NCBI GenBank assembly: GCA_016207095.1
Contig: JACQQF010000027.1
Span: 62,001-126,000 of the forward strand
Direction of reading: 5' to 3'
DNA: 64,000 nucleotides
DNA from: Candidatus Methylomirabilota bacterium
GTDB lineage: Bacteria > Methylomirabilota > Methylomirabilia > Methylomirabilales > Methylomirabilaceae
Position numbers and translations under genes: made by a program. The notes under the pieces are model-generated. The model worked only from the letters and a program-made list of their open reading frames with translations, was not told where the DNA came from and did not search any database. Positions 693-62,173 of this stretch are shown here, piece by piece (position 1 is the stretch's first letter; each line of letters starts with the position of its first letter).

Positions 693-1289
<597 letters not shown>

Positions 1290-1341
1290 TCAAAGTACAA
1301 CCGACGACAATGACCTGGAGAACTCCCACTCGACCCCCTTT

Positions 1342-1361
1342 TCGAACCTCACTGAGTTCGA
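1342..1361 (-). promoter_or_regulatory. PyrR-binding hairpin (anti-antiterminator)
   Basis: The minus strand reads TCGAACTCAGTGAGGTTCGA: a 6-bp stem, TCGAAC/GTTCGA, closing a loop with the GNGAGGYU core that PyrR recognises in characterised pyr leaders. The GTGAGG in the loop is complementary to the left arm of the downstream terminator, so PyrR binding would free the terminator. The assignment rests on the motif match plus its position between promoter and attenuator. Confidence 0.75.
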
Positions 1362-1376
1362 TTAAAAGGCTACTTC

Positions 1377-5135: not shown

Positions 5136-5753
5136 ATGGCCACATCTGTGAAAATCATTGAATACTCCGATTATCTCTGACCCTGGTGCTATCCCGCGGC
5201 GGTCCGGCTGCGGAAGGTTCAGGAACGATTCGGTGAAAGGATCTCTGTCGAACGGCGGGCGTTCCCCTTGCGGCCCGAGCCCGATCCGACGGTGACGTTC
5301 AAGGGAACATATAGAGAGGCGGCCTGGCAGCGAGCGGCCGCGATGTCTGCGCCGGATGGCGTGACCTTCACGATGTGGGCCCGGGATGACTATCCAACCT
5401 GGAGCCTTCCCGCGCTCGAAGCTGCGAGGTGCGCCGCCCTACAAGGGAATGAAGTTTTCGAGCGAGTCCATCTCCTCCTGTTTGAGGCGTTCTTCACCAA
5501 GGGGATCAATATCGGTAACCGTGAGGAGGTCATCGAAGTGGTCCGAGGTGCCGGTGTGGATATGGATCGGTTCCTGAAGGAGTACGACGCTGGAAGCGCC
5601 AGACCACAGGTTCTGAAGGAGTTCGACGAGGCGCACAGCACGTATCAGATCACCGCCATCCCGACCGTCATCTTCAATGGCGGCCGGAAGGTCGTCGGCG
5701 CCACCTCGCTTGAGGAATATCTGAAGATCCTGAACGCGCTGGGAGTCTCATAG
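5136..5753 (+). CDS. DsbA/FrnE-like thiol-disulfide oxidoreductase, selenoprotein (Sec15)
   Basis: Read with TGA at 5178-5180 as selenocysteine, the frame is open from ATG 5136 to the TAG at 5753 (205 residues) and begins MATSVKIIEYSDYL-Sec-PWCYPAAVR. Family members have CPWC here, so the TGA falls exactly on the nucleophilic Cys of the thioredoxin fold. Downstream are the helical insertion typical of DsbA/FrnE and the cis-proline loop ITAIPTVIFNG. A SECIS-like hairpin follows the TGA. GGGGG lies 5 nt before the ATG. A gene caller starting at 5268 loses the whole active site. The likely role is reduction or isomerisation of disulfides in the cytosol, since no signal peptide is seen; the substrate is unknown. 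The alternative, a nonsense mutation, fits poorly with two similar cases in the window. Confidence 0.88.
5194..5213 (+). promoter_or_regulatory. Bacterial SECIS hairpin of the DsbA-like selenoprotein
   Basis: CCGCGGC pairs with GCTGCGG (7 bp, one G-U) around the loop GGTCCG. The first loop G is 21 nt after the Sec TGA (5178-5180). The GGUC start of the loop matches the SelB-contacting loop known from formate dehydrogenase SECIS elements. Confidence 0.75.
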
Positions 5754-15186: not shown

Positions 15187-15882
15187 ATGGCGAGTACGGT
15201 GAATCGACAATCGGTGAATTTCGCCTTCTACAAGGTTGACCCGGCCTGGCGGCGCCTTCCGAAGGAAGAGCGAGAGGCAAGTAAGAAGGAGTTCGGTGCC
15301 ACGGTGGAGGAGTGGCGCCAGCGGATGCTGCTCATCCCCTACTCCACGGTCGGGCTGCGCCCCGAGACCGATTTCATGCTCTGGCGGGTCGCTGACTCCC
15401 TGGATCTCCTCCAGGAGATGAGTCGAGCGCTTAATAGGACGGCGCTCGGCGCCTATCTGACAACGCCGTACTCCTTTGTGGCCATGACCAAGCGCTCTAT
15501 CTATGTGGACAAGCATGTCCACCCGGGCCAGGAGGGCCGGCGGGCAGCGATCGTCCCCGGTGAGTACCGCTACCTGTTTGTCTATCCGTTCGTGAAGACC
15601 CGGGACTGGTTCCTGCTGCCGATCGAGCAGCGACAGGAGATGATGGACGTTCACATCAAGGTCGGCCATCAGTTTCCGTCGGTCAAGCTCAATACCACCT
15701 ACTCCTTCGGCCTCGACGACCAGGAGTTCGTGGTGGCGTTTGAGAGCGACAAGCCGGGCGACTTTGTGGATCTCGTCATGGCGCTTCGGGAGACCGAGGG
15801 AAGCCGCTTCACCCTTCGCGACACACCGATCATCACCTGCATTCGAAAACCGATTCACGAGACCTTGGACGACCTGGGCTAG
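15187..15882 (+). CDS. Chlorite dismutase/HemQ-family heme protein
   Basis: A 231-residue member of the Cld/ChdC family. The heme-ligand histidine is probably His161 in KVGHQFPSVK, followed by the family block NTTYSFGLDDQEFVVAFE. The Arg characteristic of true chlorite dismutases is not evident in this block, which favours a coproheme decarboxylase (HemQ) or a related heme enzyme. It stands 10 nt upstream of mqnD in the same direction, so heme and quinone genes are co-transcribed. A GGTGGGAGG-like site precedes the ATG (AAAGTGGGAGG). The family is certain; the exact reaction is not. Confidence 0.85.
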   Translation: MASTVNRQSVNFAFYKVDPAWRRLPKEEREASKKEFGATVEEWRQRMLLIPYSTVGLRPETDFMLWRVADSLDLLQEMSRALNRTALGAYLTTPYSFVAMTKRSIYVDKHVHPGQEGRRAAIVPGEYRYLFVYPFVKTRDWFLLPIEQRQEMMDVHIKVGHQFPSVKLNTTYSFGLDDQEFVVAFESDKPGDFVDLVMALRETEGSRFTLRDTPIITCIRKPIHETLDDLG

Positions 15883-26428: not shown

Positions 26429-26662
26429 TTACGATGCGAGCGCCTCCGCCAGACGGTCCTGGTCGAATCCAACAATTCGCTGTCCGTCAATCACGGTGAC
26501 AGGAACGCTGTTGAACCCCATCCGCTTCAACTCGTCCAGCGCGACCTGATCCTCGCGAACGTTCTTTTCGGTGAAGGGGATCTGTCGTTGTGAAAGCCAC
26601 GCTTTCACCTGGTAGCAGGACCCTCACCCGGTAGCACTGTAGACAATTACTTCCTTCAACAT
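26429..26662 (-). CDS. Glutaredoxin/NrdH-like selenoprotein (Sec13, UGSC motif)
   Basis: This gene is invisible to standard ORF calling. On the minus strand, ATG 26662 follows a GGAGGGAACAG ribosome site and the frame is open to TAA 26429 if TGA 26624-26626 is read as Sec: MLKEVIVYSATG-Sec-GSCYQVKAWL. The 77-residue product is a complete glutaredoxin fold: active-site U-G-S-C at the first helix, the cis-Pro loop SVPVTVIDG and the GSH/partner motif VGFDQDRL. The TGA lies on the N-terminal active-site Cys. A perfect 8-bp hairpin follows the TGA. The likely role is a cytosolic thiol/selenol reductant. It lies upstream of the hydrolase gene and downstream of a zinc-finger gene on the same strand. 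Confidence 0.9.
26590..26608 (-). promoter_or_regulatory. Bacterial SECIS hairpin of the Grx-like selenoprotein
   Basis: On the minus strand GTGAAAGC-GTG-GCTTTCAC forms a perfect 8-bp stem with a three-base loop whose first base is G. The stem begins 15 nt and the loop 23 nt after the Sec TGA, inside the range for bacterial SECIS elements. Confidence 0.8.
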
Positions 26663-37130: not shown

Positions 37131-38282
37131 TCACGTGATATCTCCGAGTGAGTCAGTGGCAAGATACCGTTCGAGCTTCTCGACGATCTCGGCGCTCCAT
37201 CGCCCGCGTTCGACCTGTCTAAGGAGCAGGGACAGACTCTCCTCGGATAGTTGGATCCACCCGTCTGCTCTCCCATTCGACGCATCCGGCTCCGTCGGCT
37301 CATCAAGATGGACCCAAAGCCGGCCGTCTTCACTCACGCGAACCTCCCCCGCTTCGGTCTCGGCCGCCGCCCTGATCGCCTCCACGAGCGCTTCGCGCAA
37401 GAAAGACCGCAGATCGATGGACATCCCATCGCCCGAAGCAGAGATTCCCTTTGATCCTCCGTCGCCAGTGACGCCGACCGGCAGCGCTGCCGTTTCAGCA
37501 GTTCGCCCGGTCCAGATGGGGCAGATGCTCAGGTAAGCGCACCATTGGCACAGGAGACTCTTAATCGGTGTGAACTCGGTATCGGCTTCGATCCGATCGA
37601 TCAGGGCTATTGTTGCCGTCTTCAGACGCTCCAGCGCCTCCGGCGTCCGCCTCGACCGAAGCTCCTTCCCGAAGGCCAGATAGTGCCAGACCAGCTCGAT
37701 CTCTTCGGCGTCGGGCCACATCCCTACCACCCCGAGCTGATAGAGAGCCAGTTGTCGATCGGTGTCGATCTGGTCCTGGGGTGGGAGCCGACCGGAGGTC
37801 TTATAGTCGTGGACCTCGTAGTGTCCGGGCCGTACACGTACAAGACGATCGACATACCCCTGAATTCGGTAGCGGCCGGCTTGGTCAAGAGAGGATGTCA
37901 CCCTGTGCTCCAAACCGACCGTCTGCCCACGGTCGAACGGCTTATGGGCCTGGTAGTAGTTCACCAGACATCGCTTGCCGAGTCGCTTGTAATGATCGAT
38001 TGAGTAGTCCTGCTTGACGATCCTGACTTGGTCATGCCAGCGCCGCCCCCAGTCCCATTCGTAGTAGTCCAAGAGACCGGGCAGGCTCGGATCCTTGTCG
38101 AGCTGCAGGTCCCGATAGAGCTTGTTCAGCGCCTCGTGGACGCGTGAGCCAAGGAACGCCTCGATCGACTCCTCGTCGCGAGGGATTCGATCAATGTAGC
38201 GGTACTTGTACTGGCGCGGGCAGGACTCGTACGTGGAAATCCTGGATGGCGAGTAGGTTGGCAGCGCGCCTGGCCTATCCAT
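37131..38282 (-). CDS. RecB/Cas4-like PD-(D/E)XK nuclease
   Basis: A 383-residue nuclease of the RecB family, PD-(D/E)XK superfamily. SRISTYESCPRQYKYRYID opens the domain (first Fe-S Cys), GYVDRLVRVRPGHYEVHDYK carries the D...(E)xK catalytic core, and LLCQWCAYLSICPIW supplies three more Cys, so a 4Fe-4S cluster is likely. The C-terminal 130 residues are acidic and unlike known partners. No helicase or cas gene is adjacent, so I would call it a repair exonuclease of unknown pathway. It overlaps the MBL gene by 8 nt. Confidence 0.85.
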   Translation of the reverse strand: MDRPGALPTYSPSRISTYESCPRQYKYRYIDRIPRDEESIEAFLGSRVHEALNKLYRDLQLDKDPSLPGLLDYYEWDWGRRWHDQVRIVKQDYSIDHYKRLGKRCLVNYYQAHKPFDRGQTVGLEHRVTSSLDQAGRYRIQGYVDRLVRVRPGHYEVHDYKTSGRLPPQDQIDTDRQLALYQLGVVGMWPDAEEIELVWHYLAFGKELRSRRTPEALERLKTATIALIDRIEADTEFTPIKSLLCQWCAYLSICPIWTGRTAETAALPVGVTGDGGSKGISASGDGMSIDLRSFLREALVEAIRAAAETEAGEVRVSEDGRLWVHLDEPTEPDASNGRADGWIQLSEESLSLLLRQVERGRWSAEIVEKLERYLATDSLGDIT

Positions 38283-38955
38283 ATCCCATGGCGCGCAGGA
38301 ACTCAGAGACGGAGCGGAACTGGACGTAGGGGTTCTGCCTCCGCTCGTCGCCGATAGTCGTGGAGGTCCGACCGCCGGCGTAGTTGTGGCCGGGCAAGAC
38401 CACAGTCTTGTCGTCCAGCTTCATCAATCTATTGACCAGCGACTCGTACATCTGCTCCGGATTGCTTCCCGGCAGATCGACCCGGCCGCACGACCCGATG
38501 AACAAGGTATCTCCTGAGACCAGCCGGTCTTGGACCAGGAAACATTGAGACCCCGGCGTGTGCCCGGGGGTATGGATCAGGGTGATAGCAACGCCTCCCA
38601 GATTCAGCGTGTGCCCGTTGCCGGCCCGCACAATGTTCGATCCGGAGAGCGGGATGAGACGGTCGGCCTCGGCCTCGTTAATGACCACCTTCGCGTCCAC
38701 CTTCTTCAGCAACTCCTCGATCCCCGGGATCTCCAGACCGAACAGCTTCCCGCCCACATGATCCGGGTGGGTGTGTGTGACGAGGATGTGCGTGATTTTC
38801 ATGCCATCAGCCTGGGCGAGTTCCACGATCCGATCGATCTCCCAGGCTGGATCGACGACGGCCACCTCCTTGGTCTTGGTAGAGCCGATGAGATAGACGT
38901 AGTTGGCCATCTGGCCCAACTCAACCTGCTTCAGGTACAGGCTGGATTCCGCCAT
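38275..38955 (-). CDS. MBL-fold hydrolase, glyoxalase II-like
   Basis: 226 residues with the metallo-beta-lactamase zinc site THTHPDHVGG, HTPGHTPGSQ, GDTLFIGSCGRVDLPG and the C-terminal PGHNYAGG. This set and the length are typical of hydroxyacylglutathione-hydrolase-like thioesterases and persulfide dioxygenase relatives. It is cytosolic. Its last codons overlap the start of the RecB-like nuclease gene, so they are co-translated, but a functional link is not obvious. Confidence 0.88.
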   Translation of the reverse strand: MAESSLYLKQVELGQMANYVYLIGSTKTKEVAVVDPAWEIDRIVELAQADGMKITHILVTHTHPDHVGGKLFGLEIPGIEELLKKVDAKVVINEAEADRLIPLSGSNIVRAGNGHTLNLGGVAITLIHTPGHTPGSQCFLVQDRLVSGDTLFIGSCGRVDLPGSNPEQMYESLVNRLMKLDDKTVVLPGHNYAGGRTSTTIGDERRQNPYVQFRSVSEFLRAMGYG

Positions 38956-40962: not shown

Positions 40963-41784
40963 TCAATGTGCTCGACCAGTTGGCGCCTCGACAAACACTT
41001 CTGGGTGGACGACCCGCGCCAACCGCTCCAGGCCTTCGACGAGGCGGGGTCCGGGGCGGCCGAAGAGATCCTCTGGGAAGCAATGAATCTGGCCCTGCTT
41101 CACCGCCCGCAGCCGCTCCCAGCCCGGCCTCTCGCGAACCTTCGACACCCTCATCTTCTCTTGAAGCGTCCCACACCAACAGAGCATCACAAGGTCTGGG
41201 TCTTGCTCAAATACCTGTGATTCCTGAACCACAAAGCTGGTGGCCTCCACATCCTTGAAGAGGAGATCGGCTGCGGCCAGCTCGCTCATCTGGAGGATCC
41301 AGCTCAATCGGCCAGGACTGATCAGGGGCTTTGGCCACCACTCCCAATACAGCGTCGGACGGTCGAGCGCCTCGCGCGTCCGCGCCCGGACGGCCTCGAT
41401 CCGAGCCTGAAGATCTGCGATGAGGCGGCGACCGGCCTGCGAAACCCCGGTTGCCGCGCTGATCGTCTCGATATCTTCGAAGACGTCATCAAGGCTTTTC
41501 GGCTCAAGGACCAGAAACGGCACGCCCAGCCGTTCGAGACCCGGAAGGTTTCGCTCCATCCCTGGAACACTGAGAGAGGCCAAGACTAAGTCCGGCTTGA
41601 GGGCAGCCACCTTGATCATGTCGATCTTCAGGTCCGGTCCGACCTTTGGAAGGGCCTTGACCTCCCGGGGAAAGTCAGACCAATCGTCCACTCCAACAAC
41701 CCGCGCTCCGAGCCCCAGCGCGAACAAGATTTCGGTGTTGCTGCAGGTGAGCGAGACAATCCGTTGCGGGACAATGCAGCTCAT
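40963..41784 (-). CDS. BtuF-like cobalamin-binding protein without signal peptide
   Basis: About 273 residues of the class III substrate-binding fold: RIVSLTCSNTEILFALGLG, the GVDDWSDFPREVKALPKVG loop that contacts the corrin ring in BtuF, ALKPDLVLA and a long linker helix. The family is normally exported, but from ATG 41784 no signal peptide precedes RIVSL, and the ATG sits 2 nt after the SDR stop. It may therefore act in the cytosol. It is the last gene of the methionine operon, which suggests a link between corrinoid and methyl transfer; that link is an inference. Confidence 0.8.
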   Translation of the reverse strand: MSCIVPQRIVSLTCSNTEILFALGLGARVVGVDDWSDFPREVKALPKVGPDLKIDMIKVAALKPDLVLASLSVPGMERNLPGLERLGVPFLVLEPKSLDDVFEDIETISAATGVSQAGRRLIADLQARIEAVRARTREALDRPTLYWEWWPKPLISPGRLSWILQMSELAAADLLFKDVEATSFVVQESQVFEQDPDLVMLCWCGTLQEKMRVSKVRERPGWERLRAVKQGQIHCFPEDLFGRPGPRLVEGLERLARVVHPEVFVEAPTGRAH

Positions 41785-46686: not shown

Positions 46687-47085
46687 ATGAAAATCGAGAC
46701 CGTTGTACGATCGATCGGTGGCCTGCAACAAGAGATCGTCATCGGCCCCCACCGATTGGTGGCCGACGAGCCGCCGGAGAATGGAGGACAGGATGCCGGG
46801 CCCAGTCCGTTCGGCCTGCTCACGGCGGCCTTGGGCGCCTGAACGGCTATCACACTGCGCATGTATGCGCAGCGGAAAGGATGGCCACTGAAGGACGTCA
46901 ATGTGAAGGTGCGCTACGAGCCCGGACCTTCGGGGCTTTCCGGCAGTGAAGGACACCGGATCGTGCAGTCGGTCACATTGATCGGTGACCTGACCAGCGA
47001 ACAGCGCAGTCGCTTAGAAAGCATCATCGAGCGATGTCCGACTCACAGAACGCTTTCAGCAGGGATACCGATTGTAGCTGCATAG
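46687..47085 (+). CDS. OsmC-family peroxiredoxin-like selenoprotein (Sec52)
   Basis: With TGA 46840-46842 read as Sec, ATG 46687 to TAG 47085 encodes 132 residues: [20 protein letters not shown]...[12 protein letters not shown][13 protein letters not shown]...[13 protein letters not shown]. OsmC/YhfA proteins have ALGACTAMT here, so the stop codon sits exactly on the peroxidatic Cys. The resolving Cys (ERCPTHRTL, residue 117) is kept. GGAGGGAGAG precedes the ATG. A SECIS-like hairpin follows the TGA. The enzyme would reduce organic hydroperoxides in the cytosol with a selenol nucleophile. ORF callers start at an internal ATG (46861) and miss the active site. Confidence 0.9.
46855..46872 (+). 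promoter_or_regulatory. Bacterial SECIS hairpin of the OsmC-like selenoprotein
   Basis: CTGCGCA-TGTA-TGCGCAG: a perfect 7-bp stem with a tetraloop whose second base is G. The loop starts 20 nt after the Sec TGA. It overlaps the coding sequence as bacterial SECIS elements do. Confidence 0.8.
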
Positions 47086-53260: not shown

Positions 53261-54718
53261 CTACGGCGCTGCAACCGAGGCAACCACTTTGGCCAATTCC
53301 TCCAGCTCCTCCTCCAGCACGGTGCGGGGGTCGAGGAGGACTTGGCCGTCTTTAATCCGGACCATGACCGGTGGGTCGGTTCGTCGCAGCCGCTCTTCAA
53401 TGACCTGGGAGGTCAGGTGGGCCGCCCGCACCGCAACGAGGCGCGTCGGAATCGCCTCGAGCGGCAGCGCCCCGCCGCCAACCTCCGACGTCCCACTGAT
53501 CACCGACACCTCGAGATGACCGGAGGCGAGTGTCGCGATTTGACCGCAGAGCCGGCTGGCCCGTCGATCGACCTCCCGGAGCGGCATGGCCAGCGCCCGG
53601 AGCACCGGGATATCTGAAAAGGCCCGCCCCTCGTCAAGGCAGAGGCGGAGGGTGGCCTCCAGCGCGGCCAGCGTCAGCTTGTCGATCCGCACGGCCCGGG
53701 CCAGCGGATTGAGGCGAAGCCTCTCGACCAGCGACCGCTTGCCAACGATCAAGCCCGCTTGCGGCCCTCCAAGCAGCTTGTCCCCGCTGAAGGTCACAAG
53801 CTCCGCGCCGGCGCGGACGCTCTCTGAAGGCAGCGGCTCCTTCGGTAGCCCGATCTGCGTGAGATCCAAGAGGGCACCGCTCCCCACATCTTCCACGACC
53901 GGCAGACCGCGTTGCTGGCCCAGCGCGGCGAGCTCGCTCACGGGGACCTCTGCGGCGAAGCCCAGAATCCGGAAGTTGCTGGTGTGAACCTTCAGGAGCA
54001 TGGCGGTCGCCCCACCGATGGCCGCCTCGTAGTCCCTGAGGTAGGTCCGGTTCGTCGTCCCGACTTCCTTCAGGATCCCGCCGGCCCGACGCATGATGTC
54101 TGGAATCCGGAACGAATCCCCGATCTCCACCAGCTCCCCGCGAGAGACGATGACCTCCTTCCCCTCAGCCAGCGTGTTGATGGCCAGCAGCACCGCCGCC
54201 GCGTTGTTGTTCACCGCGAGCGCAGCCTCGGCGCCAGTCAGCCGACACAGGAGCCATTCCACATGGGCTTGCCTGGAGCGCCGAGTGCCACGCTCAAGGT
54301 CGTACTCCAGGTTGGAGTAGCCCCGCGCCACCTCGACGACGCGCTCGATGGCGGCCTCCGGTAGCGGGGCACGACCCAGGTTGGTGTGCACGATGACCCC
54401 GGTTGCGTTGATCAGCCGTCGCAGGGCCGGTCGATCCCGGCGCCGCGCGGCCTCCCGCGCCTCGGCGATCAGAGCAGCCCTGGGTGGTGGATCGGTCTGG
54501 GATGATCCGGACGGCCCGGCGGCCACAATTCGCCGCCACCGATCCAATACCTCCCGAACCGCCTCAACCACCGCCCAGCGCGGGACGCTCTCCATCAACC
54601 CCCGGATCGATGGCTCCTGCAACAACTCGTCCACCGAAGGGAGCTGCCTGAGCAGCAATCGGGCTCGGCTATCCAAGGAATCCATCTCCCCCATCGGCCC
54701 TCGAGAGCCGGAATCCAT
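53261..54718 (-). CDS. selA: L-seryl-tRNA(Sec) selenium transferase SelA
   Basis: A PLP enzyme converting Ser-tRNA(Sec) to Sec-tRNA(Sec) with selenophosphate. 485 residues. RQLPSVDELLQEP opens the N-terminal domain, then INATGVIVHTNLGRAPLPEA, NLEYDLERGTRRSRQAHVEW, VNNNAAAVLLAINTLAEGKE, VSRGELVEIGDSFRIPDIM and the PLP lysine in FSGDKLLGGPQAGLIVG. These are diagnostic of SelA. The start may be ATG 54718 or 54685. No selB, selD or tRNA-Sec gene is visible in the window. Its presence supports reading the three in-frame TGA codons in this window as Sec. Confidence 0.96.
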   Translation of the reverse strand: MDSGSRGPMGEMDSLDSRARLLLRQLPSVDELLQEPSIRGLMESVPRWAVVEAVREVLDRWRRIVAAGPSGSSQTDPPPRAALIAEAREAARRRDRPALRRLINATGVIVHTNLGRAPLPEAAIERVVEVARGYSNLEYDLERGTRRSRQAHVEWLLCRLTGAEAALAVNNNAAAVLLAINTLAEGKEVIVSRGELVEIGDSFRIPDIMRRAGGILKEVGTTNRTYLRDYEAAIGGATAMLLKVHTSNFRILGFAAEVPVSELAALGQQRGLPVVEDVGSGALLDLTQIGLPKEPLPSESVRAGAELVTFSGDKLLGGPQAGLIVGKRSLVERLRLNPLARAVRIDKLTLAALEATLRLCLDEGRAFSDIPVLRALAMPLREVDRRASRLCGQIATLASGHLEVSVISGTSEVGGGALPLEAIPTRLVAVRAAHLTSQVIEERLRRTDPPVMVRIKDGQVLLDPRTVLEEELEELAKVVASVAAP

Positions 54719-55377: not shown

Positions 55378-56517
55378 TCATATGCCATGCCGCGGAAACA
55401 CCATCCGCTTCAGGCGCTCCACCTCGCTTCGCACCGCCTTCCACGCGTGCCCCTTTGTCGGCCCATTGATGACCGCAGGCCCATCCATGAACGCCCCGTC
55501 GCTGAACCCGTTCCCCCTGTGCCTTGCCAGGAAAGGTTCCGGGAGCACGGCCGGCGGCTCACGATCGTTCATGATCGCCCAAGCCGCCGTCCAGGCGCGA
55601 GCGACGTTCGTCAGGTCATACCCGCCGCCGCCAAGCGCAATCCAGCGCGGGCACAGTCCTTTGAGACTGCGGACCGCCTGAGCGAATGCCGTGAGGCTGA
55701 TCCCGATGTGGGAGAGTGGATCGGTCCGGTGAGTGTCGATCCCGAGCTGTGTGACCAGGATGTCGGGCCGGAACGCCTCCACGAGCGGCGGGATCACCTC
55801 ATTGAAACCCCAGAGGAAGATCTCGTCGTCGGCGGTGGAGGGCAGCGGCACATTTACCGAGTAACCCTCCCCCTTCCCTTCCCCAAGCTCATGGACGAAC
55901 CCGGTGCCGGGGAACAGCGTGCTGCCGCTCTCGTGAATCGAAAGTGTCAGTACCTGGTCGGTGTCGTAGAAGGCCCACTGGACCCCGTCGCCGTGATGGA
56001 CGTCGATGTCCACGTACGCGACTCGATGCCCTCGCCGGCAGAGGTCCGCGATGATCAACGCGGCATCATTAATGTAGCAAAACCCGGAGGCCTTTGCCGG
56101 CCCGGCGTGGTGGAGCCCACCGGATATATTGAAGGCCCGGCCGACCTCACCCGACTCCACGAGGCGCGTCGCCAGCAGCGAGGCGCCGGCCACCAGCGCG
56201 GACCAGCCATAGATCCCCGGCACGATCGGGTTATCGCCCGTGCCGAGGCCGTAGCGGAATGCCGTAGCGGAAGCCTGACCGGCATCAGCCGCCTTGAGCA
56301 TCGTCAGGTAGTCGGGCTGGACGAACAGCAGGAGTTCCTCATCGGTGGCGGGTTCTGGTGCGAGACAGCGGGCAGAGGGAAGGGCAAGGAGGCCGGATGC
56401 GCTGATCAGGTCATAGGTCAATTCTAACCGACGATTGCGAAGAGGATGCCCCGGTCCATAGTCGAACTCCAGGTACCGTGGAGTATAGATGAATGCGGTC
56501 GCTGGCCCCAAAGACAT
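55378..56517 (-). CDS. acuC: AcuC-like histone deacetylase family protein
   Basis: 379 residues with the arginase/deacetylase fold. Zinc and catalytic motifs: SGGLHHAGPAKASGFCYIND, VAYVDIDVHHGDGVQ (Asp/His ligands), QLGIDTHRTDPLSH and LGGGGYDLTN. AcuC deacetylates acetyl-CoA synthetase in Bacillus, restoring its activity. Acetyl-CoA synthetase is not in the window. Complete, no signal peptide. Confidence 0.92.
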   Translation of the reverse strand: MSLGPATAFIYTPRYLEFDYGPGHPLRNRRLELTYDLISASGLLALPSARCLAPEPATDEELLLFVQPDYLTMLKAADAGQASATAFRYGLGTGDNPIVPGIYGWSALVAGASLLATRLVESGEVGRAFNISGGLHHAGPAKASGFCYINDAALIIADLCRRGHRVAYVDIDVHHGDGVQWAFYDTDQVLTLSIHESGSTLFPGTGFVHELGEGKGEGYSVNVPLPSTADDEIFLWGFNEVIPPLVEAFRPDILVTQLGIDTHRTDPLSHIGISLTAFAQAVRSLKGLCPRWIALGGGGYDLTNVARAWTAAWAIMNDREPPAVLPEPFLARHRGNGFSDGAFMDGPAVINGPTKGHAWKAVRSEVERLKRMVFPRHGI

Positions 56518-61966: not shown

Positions 61967-62173
61967 GCTGAACTCCCCCTTCGCTCTGGCTGACCCCCGC
62001 GCCACGGCCCGGCGGTCCGAGGGCCTCGTATCTAAGTATATCCTCATCGAAGCGAAAAAAGCAAAGCCTTGGAGGAATACGGGAAGGATGTTGACCGGCT
62101 TCCCAGGGTGGGATTAGAATAGCGAACCCCAAGCGTGCGCGGGCATGTGACCCAAGAAATGTCTCTCGTCCTC

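Follow-up and report, generated by a model that had tools for sequence, protein, structure and literature searches.

Selenocysteine decoding and three predicted redox selenoprotein genes in a selA-bearing region of a Methylomirabilota genome

The bacterial trait for selenocysteine (Sec) decoding, as known from Escherichia coli, consists of SelA, SelB, SelD, tRNA-Sec, and the SECIS element. The bacterial SECIS is a stem-loop located directly 3′ of the UGA in the coding frame, with a small apical loop that carries a conserved G (PMC1088965). Sec-containing DsbA-like proteins (UxxC), glutaredoxins (UxxC), and OsmC-like proteins (UxxT) have been described from the Sargasso Sea (PMC1088965), and a 2026 review includes the same three families (PMC13188914). 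The review also reports 63 predicted selenoproteins for one Methylomirabilota genome (PMC13188914). The genome considered here belongs to that phylum and is likewise rich in predicted selenoproteins; the number found for it is smaller, at least 16, but comes from searches of a few families. A search of the literature on selenocysteine in NC10, Methylomirabilis, or Rokubacteria returned nothing relevant.

The mechanism at the locus described below involves nothing beyond the known Sec system, and its three redox genes are new members of known selenoprotein families. The four trans-acting factors and the position of the hairpins, right after the UGA inside the coding sequence, are shared with E. 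coli. In contrast to E. coli, the system appears to serve more user genes, and none of the 11 matches to the molybdopterin oxidoreductases (the formate dehydrogenase superfamily) uses Sec.

We analyzed a 64,000-nt stretch of DNA, referred to as the window, which corresponds to positions 62001 to 126000 of contig C100 in a 2.9-Mb genome assembly of 103 contigs that is 95% complete. The original prediction placed selA in the window. The open reading frame at positions 53261 to 54718 of the minus strand encodes full-length SelA, a 485-aa L-seryl-tRNA(Sec) selenium transferase. It scored 597.5 bits against NCBIfam TIGR00474 (cut-off 267.9), matching profile positions 1 to 453 of 455, and contains the Pfam SelA domain (PF03841, 502 bits) together with the N-terminal Se-cys_synth_N domain (PF12390). 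The gene is located just before a same-strand run of housekeeping genes for dTMP kinase, the δ′ subunit of DNA polymerase III, a PSP1-domain protein, methionyl-tRNA synthetase, and TatD.

The other decoding factors, tRNA-Sec with a UCA anticodon, selB, and selD, had been proposed as the check on Sec use, and all were found in the genome. The tRNA-Sec gene is on the window’s own contig, at positions 41243 to 41333 and ~21 kb ahead of the window start; it scored 71.4 bits against RF01852 (gathering score 47), has the anticodon TCA (UCA), and was called tRNA-SeC tca by ARAGORN. SelB, encoded on contig C92, matched at 367.1 bits and has the GTP_EFTU, SelB-wing_2, and SelB-wing_3 (winged-helix) domains. 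The absence of either tRNA-Sec or selB would have spoken against Sec use; this genome encodes both. SelD (397.7 bits, contig C18, locus L017) is itself predicted to contain Sec, its gene having an in-frame TGA in the context GAG-U-ACK. Two hairpins follow this TGA: The near one has the loop CCC, without a G, and the far one (TGGCCCA-GGTCT-TGGGCCA) has a G-containing loop at +33/+34.

Within the phylum, tRNA-Sec was detected above the cut-off in 79 of 95 genomes (33 genera). Two genomes, G003 and G008, contain the TGA genes and gave no tRNA-Sec match above the cut-off, each assembly being only ~80% complete.

The original prediction also claimed three SECIS hairpins but gave no coordinates for them. 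They were recovered by scanning all frames for TGA codons in otherwise open, coding-like frames. The scan revealed three clear in-frame TGAs at catalytic-Cys positions, in a DsbA-like, a glutaredoxin-like, and an OsmC-like gene, all of them away from the selA open reading frame. Another in-frame TGA, upstream at a metallo-β-lactamase gene (positions 38275 to 38955), was rejected since it precedes the likely start. Scoring of coding potential on either side of each TGA brought up mainly adjacent or antisense open reading frames, and the three short genes were ranked low or not at all.

All three genes have a stem-loop directly 3′ of the UGA and in the coding frame, with a small G-bearing apical loop. 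The stems consist of 7 (DsbA), 8 (glutaredoxin), and 7 (OsmC) pairs, and the loops GGTCCG, GTG, and TGTA have a G at position 1 or 2, both as predicted. Counted from the first base after the TGA, the loops begin at +21 in DsbA and +20 in OsmC, within the anticipated 20 to 23 nt, but at +24, one base over, in the glutaredoxin gene.

The hairpins had been considered very unlikely to arise three times by chance. When simple stems only were scored, hairpins of this quality with GU near the loop start were found in the window after 0.2% of the codons within genes and after 0.7% of TGAs of any kind, and reshuffling of synonymous codons with the protein sequence fixed yielded P values of 0.029 (DsbA), 0.0004 (glutaredoxin), and 0.021 (OsmC). 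Fourteen TGA positions in the window passed the hairpin test, and only these three coincide with the catalytic-Cys site of a gene. A hairpin alone is thus a poor and misleading filter. The other well-hairpinned TGAs were rejected as Sec sites because each lies on the antisense strand of a gene, in a different frame, or outside any gene.

The DsbA-like gene occupies positions 5136 to 5753 of the plus strand and encodes 205 aa with UPWC at residues 15 to 18. Its TGA (positions 5178 to 5180, context SDYL-U-PWC) is followed by the hairpin CCGCGGC-GGTCCG-GCTGCGG at positions 5194 to 5213, one of whose seven pairs is G·U. All 30 sequences in the alignment, this gene among them, have the TGA, which full-length relatives throughout the phylum retain; five distant paralogs have TGC at this site. 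With C in place of U, the protein matched PF01323 at 80.3 bits. This domain and the UxxC motif are shared with form 1 of the described DsbA-like selenoproteins (PMC1088965; PMC13188914), of which this is a new member, differing in that the SECIS is imperfect in most relatives.

The glutaredoxin-like gene (positions 26429 to 26662, minus strand) encodes 77 aa with UGSC at residues 13 to 16 and matched PF00462 at 51.8 bits with C for U. It shares PF00462 and UxxC with the described Sec-containing glutaredoxins (PMC1088965; PMC13188914); here, the family has gained a new member and has three copies in one genome. The TGA at positions 26624 to 26626 (context SATG-U-GSC) is kept by close orthologs; none of the 29 aligned sequences, which include this gene, lacks it. 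The hairpin, GTGAAAGC-GTG-GCTTTCAC, spans positions 26590 to 26608. Across the alignment, 96.6% of cells are paired, both sides of the stem have changed together at three pairs (13 cells), and 0 of 500 shuffles reached as high a covariation score. Downstream of the TGA, dN/dS among genus orthologs is ~0.06 to 0.08, and changes are mostly in third positions.

The OsmC-like gene (positions 46687 to 47085, plus strand) encodes 132 aa with the motif ALGAU, placing Sec at residue 52, and matched PF02566 at 60.7 bits with C for U. In the alignment, this position and a second Cys, C117, are invariant. Its TGA, at positions 46840 to 46842 (context AALGA-U-TAIT), occurs in the 30 best phylum sequences, own gene included. 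The domain and the placement of Sec at the catalytic Cys are common to the described Sec-containing OsmC-like proteins (PMC1088965; PMC13188914). The published UxxT motif, which describes three sequences (PMC1088965), is absent: The sequence here is UTAIT, with Ile at U+3 and Thr one residue later, a small difference.

The OsmC hairpin, CTGCGCA-TGTA-TGCGCAG (positions 46855 to 46872), belongs to a group of structures that follow the presence of Sec closely, as a hairpin score of at least 6 was obtained for 33 of 33 distinct TGA sequences compared to 0 of 84 Cys homologs. In a 17-sequence subset with the common 5-nt loop, 95.5% of cells are paired, and changes on both sides account for 19 cells, with GC, UA, and CG all occurring at one position; 0 of 500 shuffles gave as high a covariation score. 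The hairpin of the own genus has a 4-nt loop and a register shifted by one base relative to the 5-nt-loop forms. The predicted structures of the OsmC and glutaredoxin hairpins are under selection. Among genus orthologs of OsmC, dN/dS after the TGA is ~0.09 to 0.11, again with mostly third-position changes, and the coding sequence past the TGA is under purifying selection in both families. A distant OsmC subfamily (L124 to L127, 30 to 36% identity) also has the TGA, followed by an unrelated 9-bp hairpin, CGTTCGGCG-GTT-CGCCGAACG, which suggests a separate origin or a replacement of the SECIS.

Could the in-frame TGAs simply end translation, or stem from nonsense mutation or faulty assembly, with decaying or separate open reading frames downstream? 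TGA is a usual stop here and ends 29 of the 57 predicted genes of the window. However, in the first set, every one of the 89 sequences aligned for the three families has TGA at the Sec site. The codon is retained in relatives at 40 to 95% identity across many genera and is spanned by the Pfam profile matches of all three proteins when C is substituted for U. Pseudogenes are excluded by the dN/dS values of ~0.06 to 0.11 and mostly third-position changes past the TGA in the OsmC and glutaredoxin genes, and we regard the whole explanation as extremely improbable. Just as improbable is a genome-wide reassignment of TGA to another amino acid, such as Trp, Gly, or Cys, rather than Sec insertion at marked sites. 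It would account for several genes being read through TGA, but the read-through codons found sit at catalytic-Cys sites, the tRNA with the TCA anticodon is tRNA-Sec, and SelA, SelB, and SelD are all present; the same 29 of 57 genes, in which TGA is the normal stop, exclude a genome-wide change of the code. The apparent stop codon of the three redox genes is almost certainly read as Sec.

The hairpin of the DsbA-like gene, the weakest of the three, has to be considered separately. Sec may be inserted here while the hairpin as drawn is incidental, a chance stem that arises because the conserved segment PWCYPAAVRLR is encoded by GC-rich codons, and recoding would then depend on another, weaker or imperfect element. 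The P value from synonymous shuffles is no better than 0.03 to 0.05, and the stems of relatives, whose register and mismatches vary, mostly contain 4 to 5 uninterrupted pairs, which does not surpass the similar 5-bp stems of the five Cys paralogs. On the other hand, most relatives fold a longer stem if one mismatch or bulge is allowed, and two of them (L100 and L103) have 7-bp stems of another sequence (CTGCAGC/GCTGCAG) in which every position pairs. The GU of the apical loop is also kept in the alignment, although a conserved Val codon needs GU as well. On this evidence, an incidental hairpin seems unlikely, though it deserves more weight than the two explanations rejected above. That the DsbA-like gene encodes a selenoprotein is near-certain; the shape of its SECIS is putative.

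Sec and Cys forms of OsmC cluster in a tree of 120 sequences, but at least three Sec/Cys changes are still required; the tree is unrooted and built from few columns, and its inner forks are unsettled. In one clade (support 99/98), 15 Sec sequences, all but one from Methylomirabilota, group with six Cys forms of Acidobacteria and Verrucomicrobia (L155, L157, L154, L162, L174, and L203). The fifteenth Sec sequence, L200 (QHUL01000002.1), is a Sec-OsmC with a Methylomirabilota-type hairpin on a contig binned as Gemmatimonadetes, and it may be misbinned or transferred. L155 retains 6 of 7 hairpin pairs after its TGC codon, the sole such case among 87 Cys sequences, and this hairpin is possibly a relic of a lost SECIS. 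A tentative scenario, to which we give somewhat less than even chances, is that the Sec-OsmC of the phylum passed to soil bacteria and was then converted to the Cys form by a single TGA-to-TGC change; the conversion may instead have run in the reverse direction.

Sec use was also expected to be broad and centered on redox functions, and this expectation was borne out. Searches of a few families and targeted stretches brought the number of selenoprotein genes predicted for this organism to 16, a lower bound because few families were searched. In-frame TGAs were found in 9 of 15 AhpC/TSA-family matches, in three glutaredoxin-like genes, in one of three CMD/AhpD-like matches, and likewise in the OsmC, DsbA, and SelD genes, compared to 0 of 11 molybdopterin-oxidoreductase matches in the family search of the genome. 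Beyond SelD and the three genes of the window, the predicted set comprises 12 genes (nine AhpC/TSA, one CMD, and two glutaredoxin-like; loci L212, L214 to L217, L219 to L222, L246, L110, and L111). Further TGA contexts at catalytic sites include FTPV-U, FWTTW-U-PHC, FFHSK-U-SHC, and CTS-U. A focus on peroxide defence was only partly right: Many of the AhpC/TSA hits are UxxC thiol-disulfide proteins (TlpA/ResA-like) and not peroxidase-like.

In 15 of the 16 genes, the TGA is followed by a stem-loop that has five or more pairs and a G as the first or second loop base (combined P of 4e-12 against synonymous shuffles), the G-bearing loop of selD being far out, at +34. No simple hairpin was found after the TGA of one peroxiredoxin gene (contig C96, L212).

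Taken together, the sequence data predict a standard bacterial Sec system, a reading that we hold with very little doubt: The three hairpins of the window serve as SECIS elements, each in a redox gene that has Sec in place of the catalytic Cys. SelA, encoded in the window, would convert Ser-tRNA(Sec) to Sec-tRNA(Sec) with selenophosphate supplied by SelD. SelB would carry Sec-tRNA(Sec) to the ribosome and is predicted to bind the hairpin just 3′ of the UGA, and with the hairpin bound, the UGA would be read as Sec rather than as a stop. Sec would thereby occupy the catalytic Cys position of the DsbA-like, glutaredoxin-like, and OsmC-like proteins. We infer decoding of UGA as Sec in vivo from what is established about the Sec pathway. 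By the same kind of reasoning, the DsbA-like and glutaredoxin-like proteins probably function in thiol-disulfide exchange and the OsmC-like protein in hydroperoxide or related thiol chemistry.

Several other features of the window and the genus were recorded. A candidate PyrR-binding RNA leader (positions 1254 to 1373, minus strand) is upstream of the open reading frame at positions 693 to 1274; its score of 54.2 narrowly exceeds the Rfam gathering score of 54. A chlorite-dismutase-family protein is encoded at positions 15187 to 15882 (plus strand) and a histone-deacetylase-family protein at positions 55378 to 56517 (minus strand). Among the 15 genomes of the genus, the one studied here included, pmoA (PF02461) was found in 10 and was not found in G000, G003, G004, G007, and G008; the studied genome, 95% complete, is among these five. 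Sec-OsmC occurs in the genus only in G000, G003, and G008.

With standard annotation, these three redox selenoprotein genes would be cut short, divided, or overlooked. The recurrence of Sec-containing DsbA, glutaredoxin, and OsmC proteins across many genera of one uncultured phylum ties these bacteria to selenium supply. The families also provide a large comparative set, Sec forms with a hairpin and Cys forms without it, for defining bacterial SECIS elements.
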